A DNA stretch of 64,000 bases from Heterohyrax brucei (Eukaryota > Chordata > Mammalia > Hyracoidea > Procaviidae): NCBI GenBank assembly GCA_028571685.1, contig CM053166.1:58056111-58120110 (forward strand). The letters run 5' to 3'. Both the position numbers and the translations under genes were made by a program. Positions 15,215 through 53,300 of the stretch are shown piece by piece. Under the pieces are notes generated by a model. It ran no database searches, was not told the DNA's origin, and saw nothing but the letters and a program-made list of their open reading frames with translations. How positions within the stretch are numbered: the stretch's first letter is position 1; the number at the start of each line of letters is the position of its first letter.

Positions 15215-15373
15215 TTTTAAAAACCCAGTACCATCAAGTTGAGGCCGACTCATAGTGACCCTATAGGACAGAACAGAACTGCTACACAGTTTCCAAGGAG
15301 CACCTGGTAGATTTGAACTGCCAATGTTTTGGTTAGCAGCCATAGCACTTACTGACTACGCCACCAGGGTTTC
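15215..15373 (-). mobile_element. AfroSINE inside L1
   Basis: A reverse AfroSINE with 'gactcatagtgaccctatag', 'tttccaaggagcacctgg', 'ttggttagcagccatagca' and 'cgccaccagggtttcc'. Confidence 0.9.
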
Positions 15374-15378
15374 CATAC

Positions 15379-15957
15379 TGTCTTAGGCTGGGTTTTCTAG
15401 GGAAGCAAAACCAGTAACATGTGTAGGTACAAGGAAAGATTTATAATATAGATAGATAGATACAAATATAGGAAACAGCTCATGTAATCACAGAAGCTGA
15501 ATGTCCCAAGCTCTGGCAGAAGCCTCACGTGGCCACAGAAGCTGAGGAACCCACAGTCAGCAAGTCAGAGGCCAGAGTTCTAGATCACCAGTTGTGTAGG
15601 TCAGTGGATCCCAAGCTGGTGGCAAGATGAAGCGACAGAGGCTGGCAAAACCAGGATCAGCAGGTCAGGGAGCAGGAGTAGGCAGAGGCTGGCGAACCCA
15701 GGATTGGCAGGTCAGGGAGCAGGACTCTCAAGTGCTGACTGTAAGAACTGATGAGTCCAACAGCTGCTAGTTAAGTCCCGGAACCAGACACTGGAACAAG
15801 AGAGCAGGAGCTCCTGGCCATGTGAGCGACCAGCAGCCATAGTAAAAGGTCGCGAGATGAGAGCCGAGGGGCAGGGAGCCACCACAAACCCCGCCCTGCC
15901 ACTTAATACAGCAGCCAAATATGTAGTAGACAAGTTGACATAATCCTGACCACCACA
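15379..15957 (-). mobile_element. ERVL/MaLR-related LTR
   Basis: A 579-bp TG...CA element (TGTCTTAGGCTGG to CACCACA) with a perfect CATAC duplication (15374-15378 and 15958-15962). Read in reverse it starts like MaLR-type LTRs. It resembles the element at 62011-62596 in its first bases and in repeated 'agaagctgag' and 'ggcaggtcag' phrases. A short GATA run sits near 15451-15462. The exact family is unknown. Confidence 0.75.
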
Positions 15958-16069
15958 CATACATATGGGTTATATAACATGGATAAATAGAAAACATGTT
16001 AAGCGAACTAAGGACAAATATTATATAATCCCACTCACATGAAATACACAGAATATGCAAATGCATAGA

Positions 16070-16551
16070 TGTTATAGAAAAATGCGGAGGTGAATGACAC
16101 CCTGGAGGAGGCAAGAGGCTGTTTATTGCGCCGGAGGGCCAACGGGACCTTCACAGGTTCCAACAATTGGCCCCGAGTAGGGTTTCGGGAGGGTAGGTAT
16201 AGTGCAGTTTGAGGATGTCATGGTTGAGACAAATGGGGTGAGCGGGTGGGGTTCTGAGGGGGGGTGCATCCTGCTAGGCAGGAATGAGGCTTTGAAGGGG
16301 CGCATCCTGCCAGGTGGGAGTGAGGCTTATCAAAGGGAAATATCCTGTCAGGCGGGGGGGCCGGGCTGAGAAGGGGGGAAAGGGGAGTATCCTGTCAGGC
16401 AGGCTCCGGGCTTATCAAAGGACAGTGTCGGAGAGTGTCCTGTCAGGTGGGAGCTGGCTGAGAAGGGGGAAGGGAGTATTGTATCCTGTCAGGTGGCGGC
16501 AGGGGCAGCAAGGAGGGGGAGGAAAATTTTTCAGTCTCAGTTATCCATATT
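16070..16551 (-). repeat. 3' LTR of the provirus
   Basis: A 482-bp LTR. On the element strand it begins AATATGGATAACTG and ends CTATAACA, so the canonical 5' TG is not at the edge. A polyadenylation signal (AATAAA on the element strand) is at 16122-16127. The U3 part holds several copies of a CCTGACAGGATA-like motif. Confidence 0.9.
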
Positions 16552-16563
16552 ATTCCCCCCTTT
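16552..16563 (-). promoter_or_regulatory. Polypurine tract of the provirus
   Basis: On the element strand AAAGGGGGGAAT lies directly before the 3' LTR, in the position expected for the plus-strand DNA primer. A second G-run with the same 'tatcaaaggggggg' context lies just upstream (about 16568-16582). Confidence 0.8.
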
Positions 16564-16599
16564 GATACCCCCCCTTTGATAAAGGTGGGTATCACAACT

Positions 16600-17583
16600 C
16601 TCCAACGTCGGCTTGGGGAAGTTGTTGATAAGTTCAGAGGGTCAGGACTCTGGAGATGATTTTGTTGAGTAAGTTCTGTTCTAGTTGGTCTCACAGATGG
16701 CGCAGGAGGCAGGGTCTGAAGGTCAGGACTATGAATCCGAAGGCGGGTGGCCCCATTTGACATGAGTCCCCATCCAGACTGGGTAAGTTCATGTCATCTC
16801 TGTTCAATTTGGCTTTTGAGTTCTGTAACCTTACGTGTGACAATGTTAGAAACATTTACAAAATAACAACATTCTTCACCTAGCGCCATACAGGTCCCAC
16901 CCTTCTATGCTAGTAATAAGTCTAATGCTCGTCTGTTTTCTAAAATAACTGTTGTCAGGGAGTTAATTTGATTCTGAAGTATAAGAAGTGTGTCAGCAAC
17001 TTGGTCCATGTCCGCATTGTGTGTCTCTGATAGCTTTTTATAGAGGGTACCTGATGTGGCGACTCCACCGGTGCCTGTGGCGAGTCCAATGAGTGAAGTG
17101 AGTCCTAATACAGCTACGCCTATGGCCCTTCTTAGGTTAGGTGTGGGGAGGAAGAGAGACTCAAAATCTTTTGGTGAGTAAATGTGATAATTGGGGAAAG
17201 TATATACCAGAGTGCAGGTATGGTTGGTGGGGAGGCACTTGTGCAGGTTAGAGTCACACCACAGGAAGGTGGTATTGTCAGTACAGGTTAGGTTGGTGGG
17301 TGTGCTGGAGGTTTGTGTTTGTAGGTAGTTCAGTGTGGAGGTTTGGATAGTACCAGTGTGTTTCCAGCAAATGGAGACAGTGGAGTTAAGGAGGGGAACC
17401 TGTGTTGTTAAAGTCCTGATGTGTGGAGGAGATGACCCTGTTACGGCAGGCCAAGGAGTCTCCTGTGTACAGAGTGACACGGTGTTGTAGGCCACCCCGG
17501 GTTACTTGGGGAAAATATAAAAGGTAGTAAATGAGGCAAATAAGAGGGTTATAAGGAGGAAGCACCTTAGGAGTGCGGCTCAA
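16600..17583 (-). pseudogene. env: env pseudogene (shortened SU, TM remnant)
   Basis: Retroviral envelope remnant. On the element strand it opens near 17583 with a hydrophobic leader-like stretch (LICLIYYLLYF). It shifts frame near 17500 and continues as a 196-codon frame to an in-frame TAG at 16905-16907. A basic LRRA sequence precedes a glycine- and alanine-rich fusion-peptide-like segment (AIGVAVLGLTSLIGLATG). A heptad region and the conserved CX6CC cysteine motif follow, the latter just beyond the stop (about 16870-16893). That motif identifies a gammaretrovirus or D-type TM. The part before the cleavage site is only about 150-180 codons, much shorter than a normal SU, so a large internal deletion is likely. 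Non-functional as seen. Confidence 0.85.
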
Positions 17584-17591
17584 GCAGGATA

Positions 17592-18100
17592 TTGAGGTTG
17601 AGTTTGGATTCTATTTGGAGCAGTTATCAAGCCTCTAGCTTTCAGGGCAGAGGTGAGTGTCATTGAGCACTCCTGTAAAAAGGAACGATCAGGGTGAGCT
17701 AACAAAATGTCATCCATATAATGAATGAGATAAACAGAGTGAAATTGTTTTCGAACATTCTCTATCGCAGCATCTATAAATTTCTGACAGAGTGGGATTG
17801 TTTTTTATTCCCTGGGGGAGGACTTTCCACTGATATGGCTAGAAAGACCGTTTGAAATTCTCTGATGGCAGATTAAAAGCGAAGTGTAAAGAAGTACTTT
17901 TGTAAATCAATTCAGTAACAGCATGGTTCATTGGAATAACACTTTAGAGGAGGGAGCTCAGGTTGTAAGGCTCCTGCGCTTCTATTGTTGCATTGATTGC
18001 CCTTAGGTTCTGTAACAGACGCTATTTGTCCGACTTCTTTTTGATAGGGTATAAGGGGAAATAGTCACTTGTCCGATTTTTTAAGAAACTTGAAAAGAAG
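17592..18100 (-). pseudogene. pol: Betaretrovirus-like reverse transcriptase fragment
   Basis: A partial reverse transcriptase (copies RNA into DNA) on the element strand. Visible motifs are 'RLLQNLRAINA', the LPQG block (17809-17820) followed by 'IKNNPTLCQKF', and the catalytic YMDD (17709-17720) in 'HYMDDILLAH'. LPQG-x-x-N-PT-x-CQ together with YMDD is the class II (betaretrovirus/ERVK-like) style; gammaretroviruses usually have YVDD. Stops and frameshifts occur upstream (for example a stop after 'KKKSDK'). It ends abruptly before env, and no RNase H follows. Its place after the integrase piece is out of the normal gene order. Confidence 0.8.
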
Positions 18101-18446
18101 AGGTTCTCAAACGGCTTCAGGTTTTGACTCTGAGTTAGAATCGTCCCTCAATACTTAACAGCACAGAAAAGAGGTATCCTCCTGGAGAATCGCCTGGTGG
18201 AGGGCACGGCGAGAACCCACAAGACTGAGAGCAGAAAGGGAATAGGTAGCCTGTTCCTTTAAGTTTTCCGTGCGGCTGTGGCCACCAGGCAGCGGCTGCT
18301 GCTGGCGCAAAAGCCGCAGAGGTGCCCGTGAGCGGAGAAAAAAAAATGAGTAGCCTGTTCTTTTAAATTCTCTGCAACTGCGGAGACTGGCTCATCAGGC
18401 TTCCCAGGTTTCTCAGGTTTTGACTCCGAGCCAGAGTCGTCCCTGA
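18101..18446 (-). other. Junction segment between integrase and RT pieces
   Basis: Two similar acidic-coding phrases occur here on the element strand: 'acgactctggctcggagtc' near 18421-18440 and 'acgattctaactcagagtc' near 18125-18145, each followed by 'aaaacctga'. A 'gaacaggctac' phrase also occurs twice. This looks like an internal duplication, perhaps of a class II Gag-like region, but I cannot identify it. Confidence 0.4.
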
Positions 18447-19095
18447 TTAAATTCTAACAGGCTCTTCAGGTTTGATTTTATGTACAGGATTTATCAGGGC
18501 TATAGGGATTCTTTCTAGGATATACTGTGAGAGGCTTTTGAGAGTACTGCCAAAAGCTATTAACTGCTGATCTAGCTGTGTTTCTCTTAATTCTTTGGAC
18601 GGGCTTAGGCGAGGTATTATTGGAGGGGGTCTTCCAAACATGATTTCGAATGGGGAGAAACCTAATGGCCCCGGGGTTCATCTTATTTTTAGTAAGGTTA
18701 TCGGTAGGAGAGTTATCCAGGGAAGTCCTGTTTCTTGTGTTAATTTGCTTAGGTGGCTTTTAAGGGTTCTGTTAATTCTTTCTACTTTTCCTGAACTCTG
18801 GGTCTCCATGTACTATGGAGTTTCCATTTTATCTGCAGGGTTCGTGAGATTTCTTGTATGATGGTGGCTATGAAGGCTGGCCCGTTGTCACTCTCTATGG
18901 TGAGGGGGAGCCCGTATCGGGGAATAATTTCTTTTAGTAGTATTTTAACTACTTCTCTGGCTGTTTCAGTGTGTGGGGGGAAAGCTTCTATCTACCCAGT
19001 GTGTGTGCAGACGAGGACTAGAAGATAGTGGTATCCATTGCATTTAGGGAGTTCAGTGTAGCCTATTTGTATATCTTCGAATGGAGTTGTTCTAA
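18447..19095 (-). pseudogene. pol: Gammaretrovirus-like integrase fragment
   Basis: The integrase joins retroviral DNA to the host genome. On the element strand the catalytic-core part shows 'YHYLLVLVCTHTG', a stop in place of the usual Trp, 'IEAFPPHTETAREVV' and 'PLTIESDNGPAF', which carries the second catalytic Asp. It continues to a C-terminal block containing 'FEIMFGRPPPI', typical of gammaretroviruses. The zinc-binding N-terminus is absent. Upstream the frame joins protease-side sequence directly near 19100, so RT, RNase H and the integrase N-terminus appear deleted. Confidence 0.85.
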
Positions 19096-19194
19096 TGTGC
19101 TGTACTCTGGGAGGCCCAAGGGGGCCCTGTCTGGGGAGAATAATGTCCATTCACCTTCTCAGTTCACAGTCACAGTCAGTATTAGTGGGCTCTG

Positions 19195-19530
19195 GTCCGA
19201 GATTCTCATGGTGGGTTCCTGGGGATTAGTGAAAGAAATGGTGGTGTCCAGCTTTGTGAGGAGGTCTCTCCCCAGAAGGGGCGCTGGGCATTTGGGGATC
19301 AGGAGGAACTCATGTTGGACCTTATGTCCTCCCAGGGTGTACGTTCGAGCTTGGAGGAAAGGCCTCTTAGTCTGGTTCCCGGTGGCTCCCGTGATCGTGA
19401 CCTGTCACCCGCTGAGAGGACTTAGTTGGCTTGTTAGGACAGAATGCTCGGCTCCAGTGTCAACTAAGAAGTCCACCGGCTGGCCCCCGACTTTCATCTG
19501 GACCATGGGTTCCTGGGGGCCCAGTCTGTA
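19195..19530 (-). pseudogene. pro: Retroviral protease pseudogene
   Basis: An aspartic protease that would cleave Gag-Pol. The active-site triad DTG is at 19453-19461 within '[12 protein letters not shown]'. Downstream are 'VTITGATG' and the conserved 'CPAPLLGRDLL' block, both typical of gammaretroviral proteases. An in-frame stop interrupts the part between them. Antisense ORFs over this region, including one of 173 codons at 19028-19549, are shadows. Confidence 0.85.
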
Positions 19531-19679
19531 TGAACCTGGTCATCCCTAGTCCGAGTCCTCACCCGCCAGGGCCAATGTCGTGGTCGGTGGTTCCAGTAGA
19601 TATCCTTCGGTGTGTGCCGTTGTGGGCTTTCTGGGTCAGACTTTGTCCTCCGCTGTCTGCTTCCTTGGTGGCCTGGTGG

Positions 19680-21042
19680 GATAGTCATGCATCCAATGTC
19701 CTTCTAGTTTGCAGTAGGCGCACTGATTCTGGCCCAGTGGCGGTCTGGAGGACTTCATGGACTTCTGGGGGTGCTCAGTAGTCGGGGTGGGGGGCCTTGC
19801 CAGTCAGGGCCGCTGTGATGAGATGAGCATGTCGCCTGGCCTTTCGTTCGTCCTCCCTACGGGCCTCTCAGTCCCGGTTCATGAAGACCTTATTAGCTAT
19901 ATCAATTAATTGGGAGCTGTTCATACCACTAAATCCCTCTAGTTTCTGTAATTTCCTGCAGATGTAGGCAGCTGACTGGGCGACGAAGGCTGCATTTACA
20001 AGGGTCTGACTTTCGGGGGCTTCGGGATTGAAGGGGGTCCAGATGCAGAAAGCTTCACAGAGTCTCTCATAAAATTCTGAGGGAGGCTCCTGGGGTCCTT
20101 GAAGGACTGCTTGGGTTTTAGACAGATTAGTTTGTTTCCTTGCTCCTTGCCTGATTCCATGTAGTGGTGTCCTTTGATAGACCTGGAGTCGGTGGAGTCC
20201 CTCGGGAGTGTTGGGGTCCCAGTCGGGTCTGGTGTCGGGGAGTGCCTGTTGAAGGTAACCTTCAATATCTATGATGCCAGTAGGCAGGTTGTCCCTCAAG
20301 TACTGTTGGGCCCCTTCTAAGATTTGGCATCTTTCATCGGTGGTGAAGAGGCTTAGAAATAGCTGTCGGATGTCGTCCCATGTGGGGTTATGGGTATTAA
20401 AAATCGCCTCGCACATATTTATAAGTGCCTGTGGTTTTTCGGAGTATGAGGGACTGTGGTGTTTCCAGTTCAGGAGATTGGTGGTGGTAAATGGGACATA
20501 GGTAAAGACGAGGGCTCCTGGGGTAACGGTCCCATCAGTTTCTATTTTTCCTGATCCCCGAGTCTCCCTTAAAGGCAGTTGTAGTGTCTTATTCTGGGAC
20601 CTCGTGACCGGCAGTTATGGAGGGGCTAGTGAGGCTGTTGGGAGTTCCAGGCCGAAATATGGGGGTGGGCCTTTTTCAGGCTGGTCTTGGAAGATTTTTG
20701 GAACTTTCTTCGAGACCCCAGAAGTGTTCAGGAGGACTCTTCTGGGTCCTGACTTATTCAAACAGAATCTGACCTAGCTATTTCTAATCACTGGTCTATG
20801 TAGGGGAAGTGGTTGGGATGTCCCCCTGGTTTGGCAGTGACCCTATTCCAAACTGCCTGAACCAGGTGGGTGTCTAATGTTCCTGCAGGTGGCCAGTTGG
20901 TGTCAAAGGAGGGCCATTGGACTTGGCACAGGGTTTTTAATCTCTTGGGGCTAAGCTTAACTCTATAGTTTCCCTTGAAGCCCTTATCAAGATTTTTCAA
21001 CATGCAGTCTAAGACTGTAGGTTTGCTGTGTGTCCCACCCAT
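19680..21042 (-). pseudogene. gag: gag pseudogene (MA, CA, NC)
   Basis: Gag forms the particle core. The start at 21042 gives MGGTHSK, with Gly2 suitable for myristoylation as in gammaretroviral matrix proteins; this frame stops after 84 codons. A capsid frame (20416-19868, 182 codons) carries the major-homology-like block 'QGPQEPPSEFYERLCEAF' and ends at a TGA where the reading otherwise continues into a charged region. The nucleocapsid knuckle at about 19681-19725 reads [14 protein letters not shown], so the fourth zinc ligand, normally Cys, is Tyr. Confidence 0.88.
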
Positions 21043-21626
21043 GCTGACGGTGCCGCAAGTGAGACGAATGACTTGTCCCGAGGACCACTAAGATGCCCTT
21101 CTGGCCATTCCCCTCGCAGGGACTTAGGTGGGCTCTTGGCTAAGGTGTTCCCGTATAAACCCCGGGGCGGAGGAGGCTTGGCTTACACCATTATGTCTTA
21201 TGAGTCCACAAAGAACCGCAAGAGAGGGCCCACTCAGCCTCCGTGTGAACTTGGAGGCACAGATACAATCACACAACACAAAATATATTCACTCACACAG
21301 ACTGAGACTTCCACCTGGAGGGGGAATCCTGAACTGGGGCTCAAAGGCTGGGAGATGATCAAGCTCCCCTTCACCCTAGAGAGGGCGGTCCTGACTGGGT
21401 TTGGGTGGCCCCGGGGCCTTACCTGGACTGAAGTCTTCTGATGCCTGTTACCTGATCCCTTGAGGGTCCTGCGTCTTCGGAAATCTCTCTGGCGGGTACG
21501 AGGCGGAGAGGTGGAGGGACCTCGTTAACCGGAAAACGAGTGGCATCTGTCCTTCCTAGCCTGTCCGCCCTGGCCAATGGCCAAGGTCCCGAGAGGCAGG
21601 TGACAGCAAGGGGTCAGCTTATTCGC

Positions 21627-21644
21627 TTCCCGGTCAGGGAACCA
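21627..21644 (-). promoter_or_regulatory. Primer binding site, tRNA-Glu
   Basis: On the element strand TGGTTCCCTGACCGGGAA lies 5 bases inside the 5' LTR. It is the exact complement of the 3' end of mammalian tRNA-Glu including CCA. Use of tRNA-Glu is the hallmark of the ERV-E group. Confidence 0.92.
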
Positions 21645-21649
21645 AAAAC

Positions 21650-22128
21650 TGTTATAGAAAATGCGGGGGCGAATGACACCCAGGAGGAGGCAAGAGGCTG
21701 TTTATTGCACTGGCGGGCCAACGGGACCTTCACAGGTTCCAACAATTGGCCCCGAGTAGGGTTTCGGGAGGGTAGATATAGTGCAGTTTGAGGATGTCAT
21801 GGTTGAGACAAATGGGGTGAGCGGGCGGGGTTCTGAGGGGGCACATCCTGCTAGGCAGGAGTGAGGCTTTGAAGGGGCGCATCCTGCCAGGTGGGAGTGA
21901 GGCTTATCAAAGGGAAATATCCTGTCAGGCGGGGGGGCCGGGCTGAGAAGGGGGGAAAGGGGAGTATCCTGTCAGGCAGGCACCGGGCTTATCAAAGGAC
22001 AGTGTCGGAGAGTGTCCTGTCAGGCAAGAGCTGGCTGAGAAGGGGGAAGGGAGTATCGTATCCTGTCAGGCGGTGGCAGGGGCAGCAAGGAGGGGGAGGA
22101 AAAATTTTCAGTCTCAGTTATCCATATT
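21650..22128 (-). repeat. 5' LTR of the provirus
   Basis: A 479-bp LTR that is the promoter side of the provirus. The polyadenylation signal is at 21701-21706 (reverse AATAAA). U3 carries an array of CCTGACAGGATA-like motifs and CCTTTGATAAGCC-like motifs. Forward ORFs across both LTRs are repeat artefacts. Confidence 0.9.
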
Positions 22129-22361
22129 ATAGAGACCAAAGTATTTCAGTGGTTACCAGGAGCTGGAGAAGACAGGAAGGGGGAGATATTGCTTAAGGGG
22201 AATGAGCTTCTGCTAAACATGAGGAAGCTTGGAAATGGGTAGTGGTAATGGCATTGTACAATCATTGGGAATGTAATGCTTGTGTACAACATGGGGAATT
22301 TAAATGATGTCAGTGAATTGTACACACAAAAATGGCTGACATATGACTGATATGTATGTAT

Positions 22362-23115
22362 ATGGGGAAACCGTGGCAGTATATTCGTTGAGTGCTACAG
22401 CTGCTAACCAAAAGGCCTGCAGTTAGAATCCACCAGGTGCTCTTTGGAAACTCTATGGAGCAGTTCTACTGTCCTGTGGGGTCGCTATATCAAAGTTAGC
22501 TAGGGAACCCGATCTCTGCTGCCACATACTAACATATTTTACTCCAGAATCTAACATTTTCTAGGGATAACAAAGGTCATGGATTGCATTGTAGAACACA
22601 CACAGTATTGATAAGACTATCACAGGAACGTGATCTGCCAGGCATCAACAGTTCTGCCTGGCAGTTTGTGATGCAAATACCAGTTCTTCCTGGCAGTTGT
22701 GATGCAAATATAACAATTCCTCCTGGTAATTGTGAAGGAGCAGCAGTAGCCTCAAATACAATCGAAAACCAAGTTACTACCTCCCCTCCCACCTATGACA
22801 TTGTCCCTTGCTTTTACCAATAAAAAGCACCCCAAAAATGTATAGTGGGTCTTTTTCCACTCTTGGAGACTGGCCCGTTCCCTCTTTGGAACATACTTTC
22901 CCTTAATAAACTTTTCTGTCATTTGCTACCAAAAAGGATGCATCCTCGTGTTCTTCGGGGGAGGGGAATCCCAGTTTGCCACCAGTCAGGAGGCTGAACT
23001 TGCTAGCTTGATCTCTAGAACCCGAATCAGGTCATTCGGGGTCTAATCAGCTGCATGACCTCAACAGCTATGAGTCAGAATCGACTCAATGGCAGTAGGT
23101 TTGGGTTTGGTTTTT
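22362..23115 (+). mobile_element. AfroSINE split by an LTR
   Basis: A forward AfroSINE in two pieces, 22362-22488 ('gaaaccgtggcag' to 'gtggggtcgctat') and 23067-23115 ('gctatgagtcagaatcgac' to 'ggtttgggtttgg'). An LTR is inserted between them with duplication of GCTAT. Confidence 0.9.
22489..23066 (+). mobile_element. Solo LTR, copy a
   Basis: A 578-bp LTR with a perfect GCTAT target duplication (22484-22488 and 23067-23071). It ends in CCTCAACA; the 5' TG is mutated. It holds repeated 'tgatgcaaata' and 'cctggcagtt' phrases near 22640-22710, 'ccaataaaaagc' near 22818 and 'taataaac' near 22904 as polyadenylation signals. It is the same family as 23298-23858, in opposite orientation. Confidence 0.85.
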
Positions 23116-23126
23116 GTGTATGTATA

Positions 23127-23292
23127 TGGAACCCCAGAGGCACAGTGGTTAAAAGCTCAGCTGCTAACCAAAAGGTTGGCAGTTAGAATCCACCAGTCAC
23201 TCCTTGGAAACTCTACAGAGCAGTTACGCTCTGTCCTATAGGGTCTCTATGACCTGGACTCCACTGGGCAGCAACAGGCTTCCTTTTTTTTG
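23127..23292 (+). mobile_element. AfroSINE
   Basis: A forward AfroSINE: 'ggaaccccagaggcacagtg', 'cagctgctaaccaaaaggtt', 'cactccttggaaactcta' and 'gggtctctatgacctgga'. It ends in a T-rich tail that received the next LTR. Confidence 0.88.
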
Positions 23293-31764: not shown

Positions 31765-33382
31765 ACATCAGATGTATACTCAACGATGCCATGGTGGACA
31801 CAGCATCTAGAGTCCTACTCAGGGAAATCACAAAGCTCAATGAAAGCTAAAATATTAAAATTAGGGAAACAGATTTTAACATATAAATTATGATACCATT
31901 ACACTGTAAAGAGGGATATGTTACAGTATAGCCCTTTCAGATGGGGAGGAAGTTAAGGAGATACCCAGAAGTTAAAGATTGGTTGAAACTTAGAACATTT
32001 AGGAGGAAAAAAGGGGTACCTGAAAAGGAAACTAACAGTACTACATATCAAAACCAGAAACATAATACAGGAATCTCAACAGACACAAAACCAACACTGA
32101 AAAGGTCGAAACGAAAACCTATAAAGAAAAATGACCCAGAACAGAAGATTAAGTGGAACAAAGAAAACATCAACAACATAAAAATAAAGGCACTAAAATG
32201 ACAGCACTAAATACACATCTATCAATAATTACATTGAATGTAAATGGACTGAATGCTCCAATAAAGAGATAGAGAATAACCAGTTGGATCAAAAAACATG
32301 ATCTGTCTCTATGTTGCTTACGCGAAACACATCTCGCACTCAAAGACATGAACAAACTGAAAATCAAAGGATAGAAAAATATCTACCAAGCTAACAACGT
32401 GCAATAGCATGAGTGGCAATGCTAATCTCAGAAAAGATTGTATTTTAAAGTAAAATCCACCATCACAGATAAAGATGGTCACTATTGCTGAAAGGTTCAA
32501 TACATAAGGAGGATATAACAACATTAAATATTTATGCACCCAATACCAAAGGATCTAAATACACTGAACAAATGTTGACAACATTGAAAAATGAAATAGA
32601 TCACTCCACCATAACAGTAGGAGACTTTAACACTCCACTTTTAGTAATGGACAGATCATCCAGAAAAAAGCTCAGCAAAGATACAGAAGATCTTATTGTG
32701 ACAACCAGCCAATTAAACCTCATTGAAATATACAGAACTTTTTATCTAACAACAGATAAGTACACCTTCTTTTCCAATGCACATGGAACATTCTCCAAAA
32801 TAGAACATATATTAGGCTATAAAGCAAGTCTCAACAAAATCCAAATCACTGAATTATTGCAAAACATATTCTCAGACCATAAAGCCATAAAGGTTGAAAT
32901 CAATAGCAGAAAAAAACATGGGCAGAAATTCAAACACATGGAAACTGAACAACACCTTGCTCAAAAATTCTTGGGTTGCAGAAGAAATTGAAGATGCATT
33001 AAAGAAATTCATAGAAGCAAACAAGAATGAAAACACAACCTACCAGAATCTGTGGGACACAGCAAAAGCAATGGTCAAAGGTAAATTATCTCTATAAATG
33101 CACACATCCAGAATGAAGAAAGGGATCAAACAAAGAATTAACCTTACAACTTGAACAAGTAGAAAGAGAACAACAAAAGAACTCTTTGGGCACCAAAAGA
33201 AAACAGATAATAAAGATTAGAGCAGAGCTGAAAGACTTAGAGAATAGAAAAACAATTGAATCAATAAAACCAGAAGCTGGTTTTTTGAAAAGATCAATAA
33301 AATTGATAAACCATTGGCAAAACTTACAAAAGAAAAACAGGAGATGAAACAAATAACCTGAATAAGAAACGAGAGGGGAGCA

Positions 33383-35306
33383 AAAACTGAAACACTCATA
33401 TCTCATATCTTACTCAAAAATTAGCTCTAAATTAGTCAAATATCTAAACATCAAACCTAAAACTATGAAGATCATGCAAGAAAAAGTAGGACCAACAATG
33501 GAAGCTGTAATACATGGCTTAGACAGCCTTCAAACTCTGACAAACAAAGCATAAACAACAGAAGAGAAAATAGATAAATGGGAACCACTAGGAATCAAAC
33601 ACTTTTGCTCATCCAAAGACTTTATCAAAAGAGTTAAAAGATCAGCTACTGAATGGGAAAAAATATTTGCCAACTACATGTTAGACCAACGTCTGGTATC
33701 CATAATCTACATAGTACTGCAAAATGTCAACAAGAAAAAGGTAAACAACTCAATTAAACAATGGGCAAAGGACATGGACAGACACTTCACTGAAGAGGAC
33801 ATCCAGGCAGCCAAAAGACACATGAGGAAATGCTCACAGTCATTAGCTATCAGAGAAATCCAAATCAAAACTACAACAAGATACAATCTCATACCAACAA
33901 GGTTGGCTATAATCCAAAAAAATGCAAAACAACAAATGCTGGAGAGGCTATGGAGAGATGGGAACTCTCCTGCACTGCTGGTGGGATTGCAAAATGGTAG
34001 AACCTCTTTGGAAAGCCATATGATGTTTCCGTAAAAAGCTGGAAGTAGATATAGCACTTGATCTAGTAATCCCACTGCTCAGAATATATCCTACAGATAC
34101 ACAGATACATACACATGAATGTTTACTGCAGCACAGTCCACAGTAGCAAAAAGATGGAATCAACAGATGAATGGATAAACAAACTATAGTACATATACTC
34201 TGTGGAGCACTATGCAATGATAAAGAACTATGATTTTAGGAAGCATCTCATAACTGGGTTTCAATTAGAAGACACGCTGAGTGAAATCTGTTGGCAGCAA
34301 AAGGACAAGGGCTGTGTGAGGTCCCTGCTATAAGGACTCACAAATAGACTTATGCACAGAAGAAAAGACTCTTTGATGGCTACAAGAGTGGGGAGTGAGG
34401 GAGAAGGTTGATCATAGATTAGATAGTTGATAGAAATTTGGTTAGGTGAAAGCAGTGACAGCAGAAAGTAGATCAACTTAACTGGACTTCATCATAAACT
34501 GAAAGCTCTTCTAATCTCAATTCAAGACTGCAAGGATAGAGTAGCAGGGGTGGGGGTCTGGAGACCACGTTCTTGGAGGACACTGAAGCCAATTGGCATA
34601 ACTAGCCTATTGCTAAGAGAGTCTTCTGCACCCCATATTGGGGAGTGGTAACTGGGGTCTTAACAGCTAGCAAGCTGCCATCTGAGGCACACCAAATGGT
34701 CTCAACTCAACTGGAATAGATGATAACTGAGAATAACAAAGACACAAGATAAAAAAAAGCTCAGGAGACAGAAGGACCCACGTGAATGGGAGATTAGATT
34801 ATCATGAGACCAGAAGAACCAGATGGTGTCTGGCCACCACCGAAGACAACCGTCATGGGCACACAATATTGAGTTCCTGTAGCAACATGAGAAAAAGAGG
34901 AGTGCAGCTCAAGAACTCTGATGGTCTAATGGCCTGGAGGATTCCCTGGGAATGTGGCCCCTAGACCTGCTGCCACCTCTGACCAGAAAACACTACTGAG
35001 GTTAACTCTTTGGACAAAAACGGACTGGACCCAGGGACACAGTGTGACCATATGGTGTGTGTGTACTTTATGATTCTATGCATTTATAGGAGGTTGTCCT
35101 CCTGGTCTCTTTCTAGATGGGAGAGAAGAGGGTGGAGAGGAGGGGACAGGAACTTGTTAAGAGGATACTACAAGTATAGAATCAAAAGGAGGGGTGTGCT
35201 TTCACCGGGCAAGGAGAGCAGAAGGAGCTGCAGATAGGTGGGCACACAAAACTGGTTTGCATTGTATACTTTCACTCAATCACAATAAAAAAAGAAAAAG
35301 AAAGAA
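33383..35306 (+). mobile_element. 5'-truncated L1 inside L1 ORF2
   Basis: A second L1 begins within the ORF2 C-terminal region ('catatctcatatcttactc' onward, matching about 37480 in the host L1). It carries ORF2 C-terminal remnants (33678-34034), a 3'UTR and an A-rich tail near 35283-35306. The flanks 'aagaaacgagagggga' and 'aagaaatgaaacagga' are diverged copies of host ORF2 sequence, consistent with a target duplication; host ORF2 resumes at once. Confidence 0.85.
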
Positions 35307-35519
35307 ATGAAACAGGAAATGTCACAACAGACCCAAATGAAATTAAAAGTATCATAACAGAATACTACAAAAAATTGTACTCTAACAGATTTGAAAACCT
35401 AGAGGAAGTGGACAAATGTCTAGATTCATGTCACCTACCAAAATTACCACAAGGAGAAGTAGAACAACTTAATGAACGCATCACAAAAGAAGAGATTGAA
35501 AAAGTAATTAAAACACTAC

Positions 35520-36041
35520 TGTTTTAGTCAGCTAGGGCTGCTCTAACAGAAATAATACAGAGTGGATGGCTTTAACAAAGGAAGGTTTATTCTTACACAG
35601 CCCGGTAGGTTGCAAGTCCATATTCAGAGTGTCCGCTCCAGGGGAAGGCTTTCCCCTTGTCAGCTCTGGAGGAAAGTCTGGTATTGCATCAGTTTTGTCC
35701 AGGGAGCATCTTAGTGCAGGAACCTCAGGTCTGAAGGGCGTGCTCTTCTCCTGGTGCTGCTTTCTTGATGGTAACAAGGTTCCCAATTCTCCTTGCTTCT
35801 CTTTCCTTTTATCTCTTGCAGGCTGAAAGGATTAAGGGTGGGGCAAGCCATACTCCAGGGAAACTCCCTTTACAGCAGAGCAGGGAAGTAATCCTATGAA
35901 GGAATTCACAGCCCCACCCTAATCCTTTAACATACAGTTTAGGGAAACCACAAAATGGAGGACAGTCACAAGATACTGGGAATCATGCCCCAGCCACACG
36001 GCTACACATATTTTTGGGGGGACACAATTCAACCCATGACA
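35520..36041 (-). mobile_element. MaLR-type solo LTR in L1 ORF2
   Basis: A 522-bp reverse LTR (TGTTTTAG...CCATGACA) with a perfect ACTAC duplication (35515-35519 and 36042-36046). The L1 coding sequence reads across the insertion point once the LTR is removed. Confidence 0.93.
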
Positions 36042-39000
36042 ACTACCAACCAAAAAATGTCGTGGCCCAGACACTTTCACCAAAGAATTCTACCAAACTT
36101 TTTGAGACAAGTTAATTCTAGTACTACTGAAGCTATTTCACAACATAGAAAAGGACAGAATATTCCTACATTGATTGTATGAAACTAGCATAACCCTAAT
36201 ACCAAAGCCAGGGAAAGGTCCCACAAAAAAGGAAAATTACAGATCAATATCACTCATGAACCTAGATGTAAAGTTCTTCAACAGAATCCTAGCCAACAGA
36301 ATTCAACAACACATTAAAAAAATGGTTCGTCATGATCAAGTTAGATTTATGCCACAGATGCAGGGCTGGTTCAACATCAGAAAAACAATTAATGTGATCA
36401 ACTACATAAAAAACACAAAGAATAAGAATCACTTGATTTTGTCAAGTGATACAGAAAAGGCATTTGACAAAGTCCAACACTGATTCATGTTAAAAACTCT
36501 CAGCAAAATAGGAATAGAAGGGAAATTCCTGAATGCAGTAAGGGACATCTATGCAAAGCCAACCACTTACATCATCCTGAATGGAGAGAGACTGGAAAAA
36601 TTCCCCCTGAGAAAGGGAACTAGACAAGGATACCCACTGTTACCACTTGTATTCAACATTGTGCTACAGGTTCTGACCACAGCAATCAGACAACACAAAG
36701 AAATAAAGGGCTTCTGCATCAGTAAAGAAGTAAAAATATGCCTATTTACAGATGATATGATTGTATACACAGAGAAACCTAAAGAATCCATAAATAAACT
36801 ACTAGAGCTAATAGAAGAGTTCAGCAAAGTATTAGGATATATGAAAAACATAAATAAATCAGTAGGATTCCTTTATATCAACAAAGAGATTATCAAAGAG
36901 GAACTCAATAACATTTACTGTAGCCCCCAAGAAGATAAAATACCTAGGCATAAACCTAACCAGAGAAGTAAGAGACCTATACAAAGAAAATTAAAAGACC
37001 CTACTGCAAGAAACCAAAAGAGACTTACATAAGTGGAGAAATCTACCTTGCTCATGGATAGCAAGACTTAACATTGTCAAATGTTTGTTTTACCCAAAGC
37101 AATCTACATATATGATGCAACCCCAATACAAATTCCAGGGTCATTTTTTAATGATATGGAGAAACAAGTCACCAACTTTGTTTGGAAAGGGAAGAAAGCT
37201 TGAATAAGTAAGGCACTACTGAAGAAGTGGAACACAGTGGGAGGCCTGAGGCTACCCAACCTTAGAACCTAGTACACTGCCACAGTAGTCAAAACAGCCT
37301 GGTACTGGTACAAAAAGAGACATATAGACCAATGGAACAGAATAGAAACCCCAGAAATATCACCATCCTCTTATGAACAGCTGATATTCAACAAAGGCCC
37401 AAAGGTTGTAAACTTGGGTAAAAACAGTCTCTTTAACAAATGGTATTGGCAAAATTTGAAATCAATCTGCAAAAAAACCCCGTATCTCACACCTTACACA
37501 AAAACTAACTCAAAATGAGTCAAAGACCTAAATATCAAGCCTAAAATGATAAAGATTATGCAAGAAAAATGGGGCCAACAGTGGAAGTTCTAATACATGG
37601 CTTACACAGACCTCAAAATCTTACCAACAATGCACAAACAACAGAGGAGAAAATAAACGGGAACTACTGAAAATCAAATACTTACGCTCATCCAAAGACT
37701 TTATCAAGAGAGTTAAAAGACTACCTATAGAATAGAAAAAAATATTTGGCAACTATGTATCCGATTGATGTCTGATTTCCATAATCTACAAGGGACTGCA
37801 AAATATCAACAAGAAAAAGACAAATAACCCAGTTAAACAATGGGCAAAGGACATACACATTTCACTGAAGATGACATCCAAGCAGCCAAAAGTTACATGA
37901 GAAAATGCCACAATCATTAGCTATAAGAGAAATCCAAATCCAAATTACAATGAGATACCATCTCACCCCAGTGAGGTTGGCAATAATCCAAAATACACAA
38001 AACAACAAATGCTGGAGAGGCTGTGGAGAGATTGGAACTCTCCTACACTGCTGGTGGGAATCCAAAATGGTACAACTTCTTTGGAAAGCAATTTGGCGCT
38101 TTTTAAAAAATCTAGAAATAGAAATACTGTATGATCCAGCAATGCCACTGCTCGGAATATACCCTACAGAAATATAGGCAGTTGCATGAACAGATACATG
38201 CACATGAATGTTTATTGTAGCACAGTCCACATAGCAAAAATATAGAATCAACCTAAGTGCCCATCAACAGATGAATGGATAAACAAACTATGATACATAT
38301 ATTCAACAGAACACTGTGCAATGAGAAAGAATAGTGATGATTTTAGGAAGCATCTCATAACCTGGTTTCAACTAGAATACAGTATGCTGAGTGAAGTCAG
38401 TCAGCTGCAAAAGGCCAAGTATTGTATGAGACTTCTGCTATAAGGACTTAAAAATGGACTTATGTACAAAAGAAAAGACTAATGGCTGCAAAGGTGGGGA
38501 GGGAGGGAGAGAGATGTTCATAGATTACATAGTTGGTAGGGGTTTGATTAGGTGAAGGGAATGACAGCACACAGACCAGCATAAGTGGACTAAACCATAA
38601 ACTGAAAGGTTTTCTAAACTCAACCCAATATTTCAAAGGATAGAGTAGCAGGGATGGGGGTCTGGGGACCATGTTTTCAGAAAACATCAAGGTCAATTAG
38701 CATGATTTGTCTTTTACTAAAAGAGTCTTCTGCACCCCATATTGGTGAGTGGTGTCTGGAATCTTAAAAGCTAGCAAGCTGCCATCTGAGGAACACCAAA
38801 TGGTCCCAACCCATTTGGAACAGATGACAACTGAGAACATCAAAGACATGAGGCAAAATGAGCGAGCCCAGGAAACAGAAGGACCCATATGAATGCGAGA
38901 CTGCACCAGCGTGAGACCAGAAGAACCAGATTATGCCCAATTACCGCCAAAGACAGCCATGATGGGAAACACAATGTGGAGTCTCTGAGGTAGCATGAGA

Positions 39001-50310: not shown

Positions 50311-53300
50311 CTCTTCCCAAGTTGTCTTCTGAGTGACTTCCAACATGGGGGGCTCATTTTCTGGCAGTATATTCGACAGTGTTTTCCCTACTATTCATAA
50401 GGTTTTCCCTGGCTAATTCTTTTCAGAAGTAGACTGCTGGGTCCTTCTTCCTAGCTGTCTTAGTCCGGGGAAGAGCTGCCTCCTCAATGTAGAGTTGACC
50501 TTAATGATGTGGATGGAGTAAAGCCTTCAGGACCTGATGTGGCATGACTCAAAATGAGAAGAAACAGCTGCAAACATTCATTAATAATTGGGACATGGAA
50601 TGTACAAAGTATGAATCTAGGAAAATTGGAAATCATCAAAAATGAAATGGAACGCATAAACATAGATACCCTAGGCATTAGTGAGCTGAAATGGACCACT
50701 TTGGGCCATTTTGAATCCAACAATCATCTGGTCTACTATGCTGGGGACAAAAATTTGAAGAGGAATGGTGATGTGTTCATCATCAAAAAGAACATTTCAA
50801 GACCTGTCCTGAAGTACAATGCTGTCAGTGATAGGATAACACCCATATGCCTACAAGGAAGGCTAGTTAATACAACTATTATTCAAATTTACACACCAAC
50901 CACTAAGGCTAAAGATGAAGAGACTGAAGATGTTTACCAGCTTCTGCAGTCTGAAATTCATCGAACATGCAATCAGGATGCACTGATAGCTACTGGTGAC
51001 TGGAATGCGAAAGCTGGAAATGGAGAAGGATCTGTAATTGGAAAATACAGCCTTGGCGATAGAAATAATGCTGGAGATCGCATGATAGAACTGTGCAAGA
51101 GAACGACTTCTTCATTGCAAATAGCTTTTTTAACCAACACAAACAGCAACTGTACACATGGACCTTACCAGATGGAATACACAGGAACCAAATTGATGAC
51201 ATCTGTGGAAAAAGACGATAGAAAAGCTCCGTATCAGCAGTCAGAACAAGACCATGGCACAGATCATCATTTTTCTCATATGCAAATTCAAGCTGAAACT
51301 GAAGAAAATGAGAACAAGTCCACAAGAGCCAAAGTATGACCTTGAGTATATCTCTCCTGAGTTTAAAGACCATCTCAAGAACAGATTTGACGTGTTGACC
51401 ACTAATGACTGAAGACCAGATGAATTGTAGAATGATGCCAAAGACATCATGCACAAAGAGAGCAAGAAGTCATTAAACAAACTTGCTCTCAAATGTTAAG
51501 TAGCTAAAGCAAAAGGAAGGAATGGTGAAGTAAAAGACCTAAACAGAAGATTTCAATGGGCAGCTCAAGAAGACAAAAGAAAGTACTATAATGACATGTG
51601 CAAAGAGCTGGAAATGGAAAACCCAAAGGGAATAACATGTTCAATGTTTTTTAAACTGAAAGAACTGAATAAAATTGCAATAGTGAAGGATTCCACAGAG
51701 AAACTATTAAACAACTCAAGGAGCATCAAAAAAAGATGGAAGGAATACACAGAGCCATTATACCAGAAATAACTGGTTGATGTTCGCTATTTGAAGAAGT
51801 AGCATACAATCAGGAACAGTGGTTTTGAATGTAGAAGTCAAGGCTGCATTCAAAGCATTAGCGAAAAACAAGACTCCAGGAATTGATGGAATATCCACTG
51901 AGATATTTCAACAAACAGATGCAGTGCTGGAATGCTTAGTTGTCTATACCAAGAAATTTGGAAGACAGCTACTTGGCCAACTGACTGGAGGAGATCTGTA
52001 TTGATACCCACTCCAAAGAAAGATGATCCAACTGAATGCAGAAATTACCAAACAATATCATTAATATCACATGACAGTAAAATTTTGCTCAAGATTATTC
52101 AAAAGCAACTGCAACAGTATGTTGACAAGGAACTGTCAGAAATTCCAGCTAGATTCAGAAAAAGACATGGAACCAGGGATATCGCTGCTGATATCAAATG
52201 AATCCTGGCTAAAAGCAGAGAATACCAGAAAGATGTTTATCTGTGTTTCATTGACTATGCAAAGGCATTTGATTGTGTGAATCATAACAAATTATGTCTA
52301 ACATTGTGTAAAATGGGAATTCCAGAACACTTAATTGAGCTCTTAAGGAATCTGTATACTGACCAAGAGGCAGTCATGCAAACAGAACAAGGGGACACTG
52401 CACGGTTTAAAGTCAAGAAAGGTGTATGTCAGGGTTGTATCGTTTCACTATACCTTTTCAGTCTGTATGCCAAGCAAATAATCCAAGAAGCTGGATTAAA
52501 TGAAGAACAAGGAATCAGGATCAGAGGAAGATTCATTAACAACCTGTGTTACGCTGATGACACCACCTTACTTGCTAGAAGTGAAGAAGATTTGAAACAC
52601 TAAGTGATGAAGATCAAGGACCACAGCCTTCAATATGAATTGTACCTCAACATCAAGAAAATAAAAATCTTCACAACTAGACCAGTAAGCAACATCGTCA
52701 TAAATGGAGAAAGGATTCAGGTTGTTGAGATTTTCATTTTACTTGGGTCCACAATCAACACCCATGGAAGCGGCAGTCAAGAAATCAAAAGATGCATTGC
52801 AATGGGAAAAATCTGCTGCAAAGAATCTTTAAAGTATTGAAAAGATGTCACCTTAAAGACTAAAGTGTGCCTGACCCAAGCCACGTATTTTCAATCACAT
52901 CATATGCATGTGAAAGCTGGACAATGAACAAAGAAGGTAGAAGATGAATTGATGGCTTTGAATTGTGGTGTTGGAGAAGAATGTTGAAAGTACTATGGAC
53001 CACCAAAAGAAGAAACAGATCTGCTCTTGAAAATGTACAACCAGGGTACTCTTTGGAAGCAAAGATGGATGGCAAGACTGCGTTTTACATACTTTGGACA
53101 TGTTGTAAGGAGGGATAAGTCCCCGAAGAAGGACATCATGTGTGGGAGAGTGGTCAGCAAAAAAGAGTAAGACCCTCGATGTGTTGGGTTGACACATGGC
53201 TGCAACAATGAGCTTAAGCATAAAAATGATTGTGGACATGGTACAAGACCTGGCAGTGTTTCATGCTGCTGGGCATAGGTTCACTATGAGCCAGAACCTA

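Follow-up and report, generated by a model that had tools for sequence, protein, structure and literature searches.

The window analysed here, a stretch of 64,000 nucleotides from Heterohyrax brucei, carries on its minus strand, at 16070-22129, a mosaic endogenous retrovirus (ERV) bounded on both sides by a TAGA target duplication. In reading order the provirus runs from a 5' long terminal repeat (LTR) through primer site, leader, Gag_MA, Gag_p30, RVP and rve into a class II tract with an RVT_1 match to reverse transcriptase (RT), and then through TLV_coat and a polypurine tract (PPT) to the 3' LTR. It belongs, with a probability that we put at about 0.87, to a family of non-autonomous recombinants (family A) that arose from a gammaretroviral parent and a chimeric family (family B) by a double crossover within the integrase C-terminal coding region, accompanied by deletions.

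The outer parts of the provirus are those of a class I ERV. An earlier note, made from the letters alone, had called the LTRs, gag, protease and integrase gammaretroviral, and this is borne out by the Pfam matches (Gag_MA, Gag_p30, RVP, rve) and the 4-bp duplication, to which the TLV_coat env can be added; the primer site TGGTTCCCTGACCGGGAA, which we take to be of tRNA-Glu type, would match that of the human endogenous retrovirus (HERV) E group. The RT-RNase H region expected between protease and integrase of a class I ERV is absent near 19130, as that note had observed, and absent from all six aligned A loci, window included. The sole RT lies between integrase and env, and by its ranked matches to structure chains this fragment is class II (betaretrovirus-like) in style, because 7sr6 outranks the RTs of human immunodeficiency virus type 2 (HIV-2) and murine leukemia virus (MLV). 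Among PDB chains, the piece 17580-17804 matched 7sr6 (listed as 'Polymerase' and presumably the HERV-K RT) at 2.7e-9, HIV-2 RT at 0.03 and 0.04, and nothing else at E<=1; in a separate search, the piece 17713-17838 matched 7sr6 at 0.036 and MLV RT at 1.4. Position and style had thus been correctly called, but not extent: the class II tract reaches beyond the RT, from ~17580 to 18466, and the RT is a frame-broken fingers-palm fragment only, probably a passenger that polymerises nothing. The RT piece had no match in a large protein database or in a set of viral contigs, neither expected to be rich in vertebrate ERVs, and a single weak match (0.0026) in PHROGs. The remainder of the tract, designated 'pre', gave one weak Pfam match at E<=10, below the family cut-off, and contains an imperfect 37-nt repeat (18117-18153 and 18413-18449, 84%). 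Repeats resembling SESKPEKP and NLKEQATHF run through 'pre' (18078-18458), and similar ones flank the betaretroviral Gag p10 on both sides in the chimeric locus L032.

Window segment 17500-18460, used as RT query, gave 469 candidates; for this and every other query the best 40 candidates were scored, and here 30 loci were retrieved and the window pieces mapped onto them. Two main architectures emerged, type A at 8 of the 30 loci and type B at 21. The eight A loci (L001, which is the window, to L006, L010 and L013) share the order of class II tract with RT followed by gammaretroviral env, so that the family suspected from the window is real, and in the RT tree they form a single clade (93/92; 94% of 200 bootstrap trees). 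Gammaretroviral integrase continues directly into the class II tract in six of them (L001-L005, L010). No integrase match was obtained for L006; for L013 one lies 7.3 kb upstream, and the 5 kb retrieved from the interval (as L039) holds no provirus piece, so that L013 is best taken as an interrupted provirus. The 5' LTR, leader and gag are present in the window, L002-L005 and L010, the 5' LTR of L004 being incomplete.

Family B is a betaretroviral remnant (Gag p10, RT, integrase like that of mouse mammary tumor virus (MMTV), HERV-K-like env) lying between a gammaretroviral LTR, leader and gag start on one side and a gammaretroviral PPT and LTR on the other. In all 21 loci the retrieved flank upstream of the class II RT contains the gammaretroviral leader and the opening 90-213 nt of gag, and none of the 21 gave a match to gammaretroviral protease or integrase in the retrieved flanks. 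As in A, 'pre' adjoins the RT in nine B loci (sequence compared in L007 and L009); the one further RT locus, L025, has a body that matches B and no shell within 1.5 kb. The bodies of L031 and L032 contain RVT_thumb and rve, and that of L031 also RVT_1. The L031 integrase core matches 5cz2 (1.5e-27), whose chains are presumably MMTV integrase, and its env piece matches 9nnd (1.3e-5), an entry named for endogenous retrovirus group K, while L032 carries GP41 (8.1e-37) and Gag_p10 (3.1e-16), the latter taken here as betaretroviral matrix. The donor of the RT therefore has betaretroviral gag, integrase and env, and Gag_p10, RVT_thumb, the rve near MMTV integrase and GP41 are present in B but not in A. 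No class II capsid or protease was found among 16 scanned pieces of the L031 and L032 bodies, a sample short of the whole. The 3' ends of these two loci consist of gammaretroviral env 3' sequence, PPT and LTR, and all seven further B loci retrieved on the 3' side pass from class II env-region sequence into the gammaretroviral env end and LTR.

The parent of the shell also survives. The integrase query gave 195 candidates, and the 40 scored include 7 A places in which protease is joined to integrase and 27 places with integrase alone. Env follows within 1.5 kb of the integrase in 23/23 retrieved integrase-only loci, a class II match occurs in 0/23, and protease-end matches lie 2.2-2.3 kb upstream of the integrase in 5 of the 27 places. 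In the two loci examined upstream (L055, L068), RT_RNaseH and RNase_H precede the integrase at the position of A's deletion, with an H2C2 zinc finger as well in L068; the L055 piece matches RT/RNase H p80 chains at 1.9e-69, which we take to be of MLV type or that of xenotropic MLV-related virus (XMRV), and an XMRV RNase H entry stands lower in the list. The genome thus still contains the gammaretroviral parent family, its RNase H, integrase and env in the conventional arrangement.

Because this genome preserves parent, chimera and recombinant together, each crossover can be placed with a precision of a few bases. At the first crossover, A reads ACCTGAAGA, the five aligned parent loci ACCTGGAGA and the B locus L007 ACCTAAAGA, and the template switch therefore falls between 18467 and 18466. 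At the second, AACCACCC ends the class II RT in L010 and L013 and recurs in B (L007, L031) and in the parents L054, L055 and L066; after it, L010 and L013 resume as parent integrase C-terminus and then env. Through this return to the parent, the alignment shows the class II tract to have taken the place of a small part of the region that codes for the integrase C-terminus. Both crossovers lie inside that region, at 8-9 similar bases, in keeping with the RNA recombination that had been put forward as one cause of the mosaic. Deletions complete the structure: the protease-integrase deletion, joined at CAGACAG, is identical in the six aligned A loci (L010, as L034, included), the env deletion amounts to ~470 nt relative to the parents L054 and L057, and a segment of ~280 nt retained in L010 and L013 is missing, between AGCC(A/G)CA-like repeats, from L001-L006. 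On this account, RNA of B and of an RT-deleted parent would have been co-packaged through their common leader, reverse transcription would have changed templates at two points within the sequence coding for the integrase C-terminus, and the recombinant would have spread by borrowing Gag, RT and integrase from intact parent viruses; the ~280 nt would have been lost in the lineage leading to the window.

How A and B moved may be recorded in their target sites. Exact 4-bp duplications flank 13 of the 15 A and B loci with both ends (window, L003, L005 and L010, that is, 4/5 A, and 9/10 B), and the other two, L007 (B) and L002 (A, read by eye), agree at 3/4 bases; duplications of 5 or 6 bp occur at none of the 15. 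In the available part of PMC3790719, MLV is grouped with 4-bp and MMTV with 6-bp duplications, and the gammaretrovirus Rev-A makes 5. Family B, with LTRs of the window's LTR family and no 6-bp duplication, is not a betaretrovirus as a whole; it looks integrated by a gammaretroviral enzyme, because its duplications are of 4 bp despite the betaretroviral integrase that it carries, and with its gammaretroviral leader and ends it is most readily understood as a passenger that gammaretroviral proteins propagated in trans. Family A, without gammaretroviral RT and with only the frame-broken class II fragment, was probably copied in trans too. On balance we lean towards a history in which a betaretroviral genome lost its own LTRs, leader and PPT and took gammaretroviral ones. 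As a passenger it would then have been copied, packaged and integrated by the proteins of another genus, those of gammaretroviruses, until dozens of copies existed, and at a later stage its class II RT fragment would have entered gammaretroviral proviruses.

The two LTRs of the window differ at 19 of 480 aligned sites (Kimura two-parameter distance, K2P, 0.041; 21/483 and 0.045 with other edges), which agrees with the ~4% first estimated. The family's supposed youth holds in a relative sense only: the four other A copies with both LTRs in hand stand at 0.049-0.071, giving A a range of 0.041-0.071 with a median of 0.057 (n 5), and the ten B copies range over 0.058-0.118 with a median of 0.091 (p 0.019). 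Taking 2.2e-9 substitutions per site per year would date the window copy to about 9 million years ago, or earlier if the host rate is lower. The PPT-LTR pattern occurs at 91 sites in the genome (reversed control 0); by place, with classes resting on the best 40 scored per query, the upstream sequence includes gammaretroviral integrase together with class II RT at 6 of them and integrase alone at 26. At another 30, L006 and L013 included, class II sequence is present and no integrase lies within 9 kb, and for the remaining 29 the scored loci supply neither.

Several observations weigh against the proposed origin of family A. Co-packaging and supply in trans are inferred steps, and the scoring of 40 candidates per query leaves copy numbers and the list of architectures incomplete. 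The alignment at the first crossover holds three B loci only, two of which (L031, L032) differ there slightly from L007, and in L010 the integrase gives way to 'pre' at a different position within that tract, which could reflect a second crossover or a subsequent deletion. Some parents are incomplete, the protease-integrase gap being only 0.5 and 1.3 kb in L054 and L057, and the LTR age ranges of A and B overlap. In the RT tree L006 falls with L010 and L013 (97/94), yet its RT-env junction is of the window type, so that the ~280-nt deletion arose twice or was exchanged. Finally, A is not a clade in the leader tree (21 rows: the window, five other A and 15 of the 21 B loci, six B being left out), where support is mostly low; that A is one clade by RT but not by leader suggests continued recombination between the shells of A and B.

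The same leader tree, together with the separate first junction of L010, would fit several independent captures from B in place of one; this is unlikely, as the A loci form one clade by RT and the six aligned ones, L010 (as L034) included, have the protease-integrase deletion in common. The reverse order, in which A came first from the parent and a pure betaretrovirus and B descended from A, draws on the 'pre'-RT segment and shell common to both and on the overlapping LTR ages. It is very improbable: A is without the class II gag, RT thumb, integrase and env found in B, and the LTR pairs of B are older on the whole. D-type viruses combine class II pol with gamma-type env, and the earlier note considered a contiguous RT-env block picked up from a D-type betaretrovirus. 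Env exchange between classes I and II is indeed described in PMC10536682, but the env here is the parent family's own, found in 23/23 retrieved integrase-only loci, the donor is a chimera with MMTV-like integrase and HERV-K-like env, and L010 and L013 carry parent integrase C-terminus between RT and env. Class II pol is thus not contiguous with a gamma-type env of its own, and on L010, L013 and the parent loci this candidate is rejected as scarcely credible. A later separate insertion at the window site, whether a nested betaretroviral provirus or a retroposed fragment within an ordinary gammaretroviral provirus, has next to no chance despite the imperfect 37-nt repeat, which lies inside 'pre' and does not flank the RT, since the same tract has the same edges at several loci and those edges are crossovers at shared short sequence.

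Families A and B can be set beside other elements of mixed descent. VL30 and ETn/MusD are non-autonomous LTR elements with foreign bodies; compared by description only, A and B likewise keep LTR, leader and PPT and are probably helper-dependent, and what sets B apart is a body made of a betaretroviral gag-RT-integrase-env remnant in a gammaretroviral shell. A search of the literature by title and abstract start, with most subscription literature outside its reach, turned up no account of a gammaretroviral shell with a betaretroviral body. Human mosaic ERVs such as Harlequin (Vargiu 2016, PMC4724089) are alike in being recombinant proviruses, some of which continued to integrate after recombination. 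As far as the accessible text of that survey goes, most are mosaics within one class, a small number cross classes, and env exchange runs across classes, whereas here pol and, in B, a gag-to-env remnant have crossed. BaEV, RD-114, PyERV and XtERV-S likewise join distinct retroviruses, in several cases across classes, but according to PMC10536682 they exchange env, whereas in family A the tract sits inside integrase and env is the parent's own. In the portions of the literature consulted, inter-class retroviral recombination is described mainly for env. Two practical points follow for such proviruses: the length of the target duplication may record which integrase acted, and class assignment by RT alone would misfile them.

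A separate class II family without the gammaretroviral shell seems to be present in the genome. Of the Gag p10 places, 40 were scored and 31 of these lack a PPT-LTR pattern in the 9 kb downstream; the B locus L032 is one of the 31, and the other 30 stand at 85-88% identity. Among the 40 scored env places, 20 are without the pattern, comprising two known B loci (L020/L032 and L022), one place at 93% and 17 at 84-85%. As known B loci are among them, the pattern misses some shells. The unshelled family is high-copy, and nine of its Gag p10 places have identical query scores, which suggests near-identical copies and a recent burst. A scan with what we take to be tRNA-Lys primer-site patterns, of whose matches 100/242 and 100/229 were listed, placed by eye one match 5.5 kb upstream of 1 of the 17 env loci (C27:158262117) and, among the matches listed, none near the 30 Gag p10 loci.

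Table 1. Parts of the mosaic provirus in reading order, with positions in the window.
Feature	Position	Strand	Remarks
Target site duplication TAGA, right copy	22130-22133	none	exact match to left copy
5' LTR (gammaretroviral shell)	21650-22129	minus	95.5% identity to 3' LTR
Primer binding site TGGTTCCCTGACCGGGAA	21627-21644	minus	presumed tRNA-Glu type
Leader	21100-21626	minus	common to parent, A and B loci
gag matrix piece	20788-21087	minus	Pfam Gag_MA 1.6e-10
gag capsid p30	19868-20614	minus	Pfam Gag_p30 1.1e-50
Protease piece	19159-19404	minus	Pfam RVP 1.4e-6
Deletion junction, protease/RT start to integrase	19126-19137	minus	CAGACAG both sides; RT, RNase H, integrase zinc finger gone
Gammaretroviral integrase, core and start of C-terminal domain	18468-19125	minus	Pfam rve 18782-18991, 3.8e-8; related integrase at 34 scored places
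Crossover 1, gammaretroviral integrase to class II chimera	18460-18470	minus	between bases 18467 and 18466
'pre' tract from chimera, imperfect internal repeats	18078-18466	minus	upstream of Gag p10 in chimera L032
Class II RT fragment (fingers-palm), frame-broken	17580-18077	minus	Pfam RVT_1 17580-17804, 7.9e-9
RT/env-region junction	17573-17580	minus	~280 nt kept in L010, L013 gone between AGCC(A/G)CA-like repeats
Internal env surface-unit deletion	17412-17425	minus	~470 nt vs parent loci L054, L057
Gammaretroviral env, remainder of surface unit and transmembrane part	16905-17501	minus	Pfam TLV_coat 1.2e-16
PPT adjoining 3' LTR	16553-16564	minus	
3' LTR	16070-16552	minus	95.5% identity to 5' LTR
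Target site duplication TAGA, left copy	16066-16069	none	exact match to right copy

Around the provirus, copies of a short interspersed element-like repeat, presumably AfroSINE, which would point to an afrotherian host, lie in both orientations at 15237-15374, 22398-22465 and 23158-23225. A repeat that by eye resembles window positions 15500-15960 interrupts the protease of the A copy L034 (= L010) at L034:3795-4379. Farther along the window, at 32473-37032 and 50548-52603, two non-LTR retrotransposons have left remains that match endonuclease and RT.

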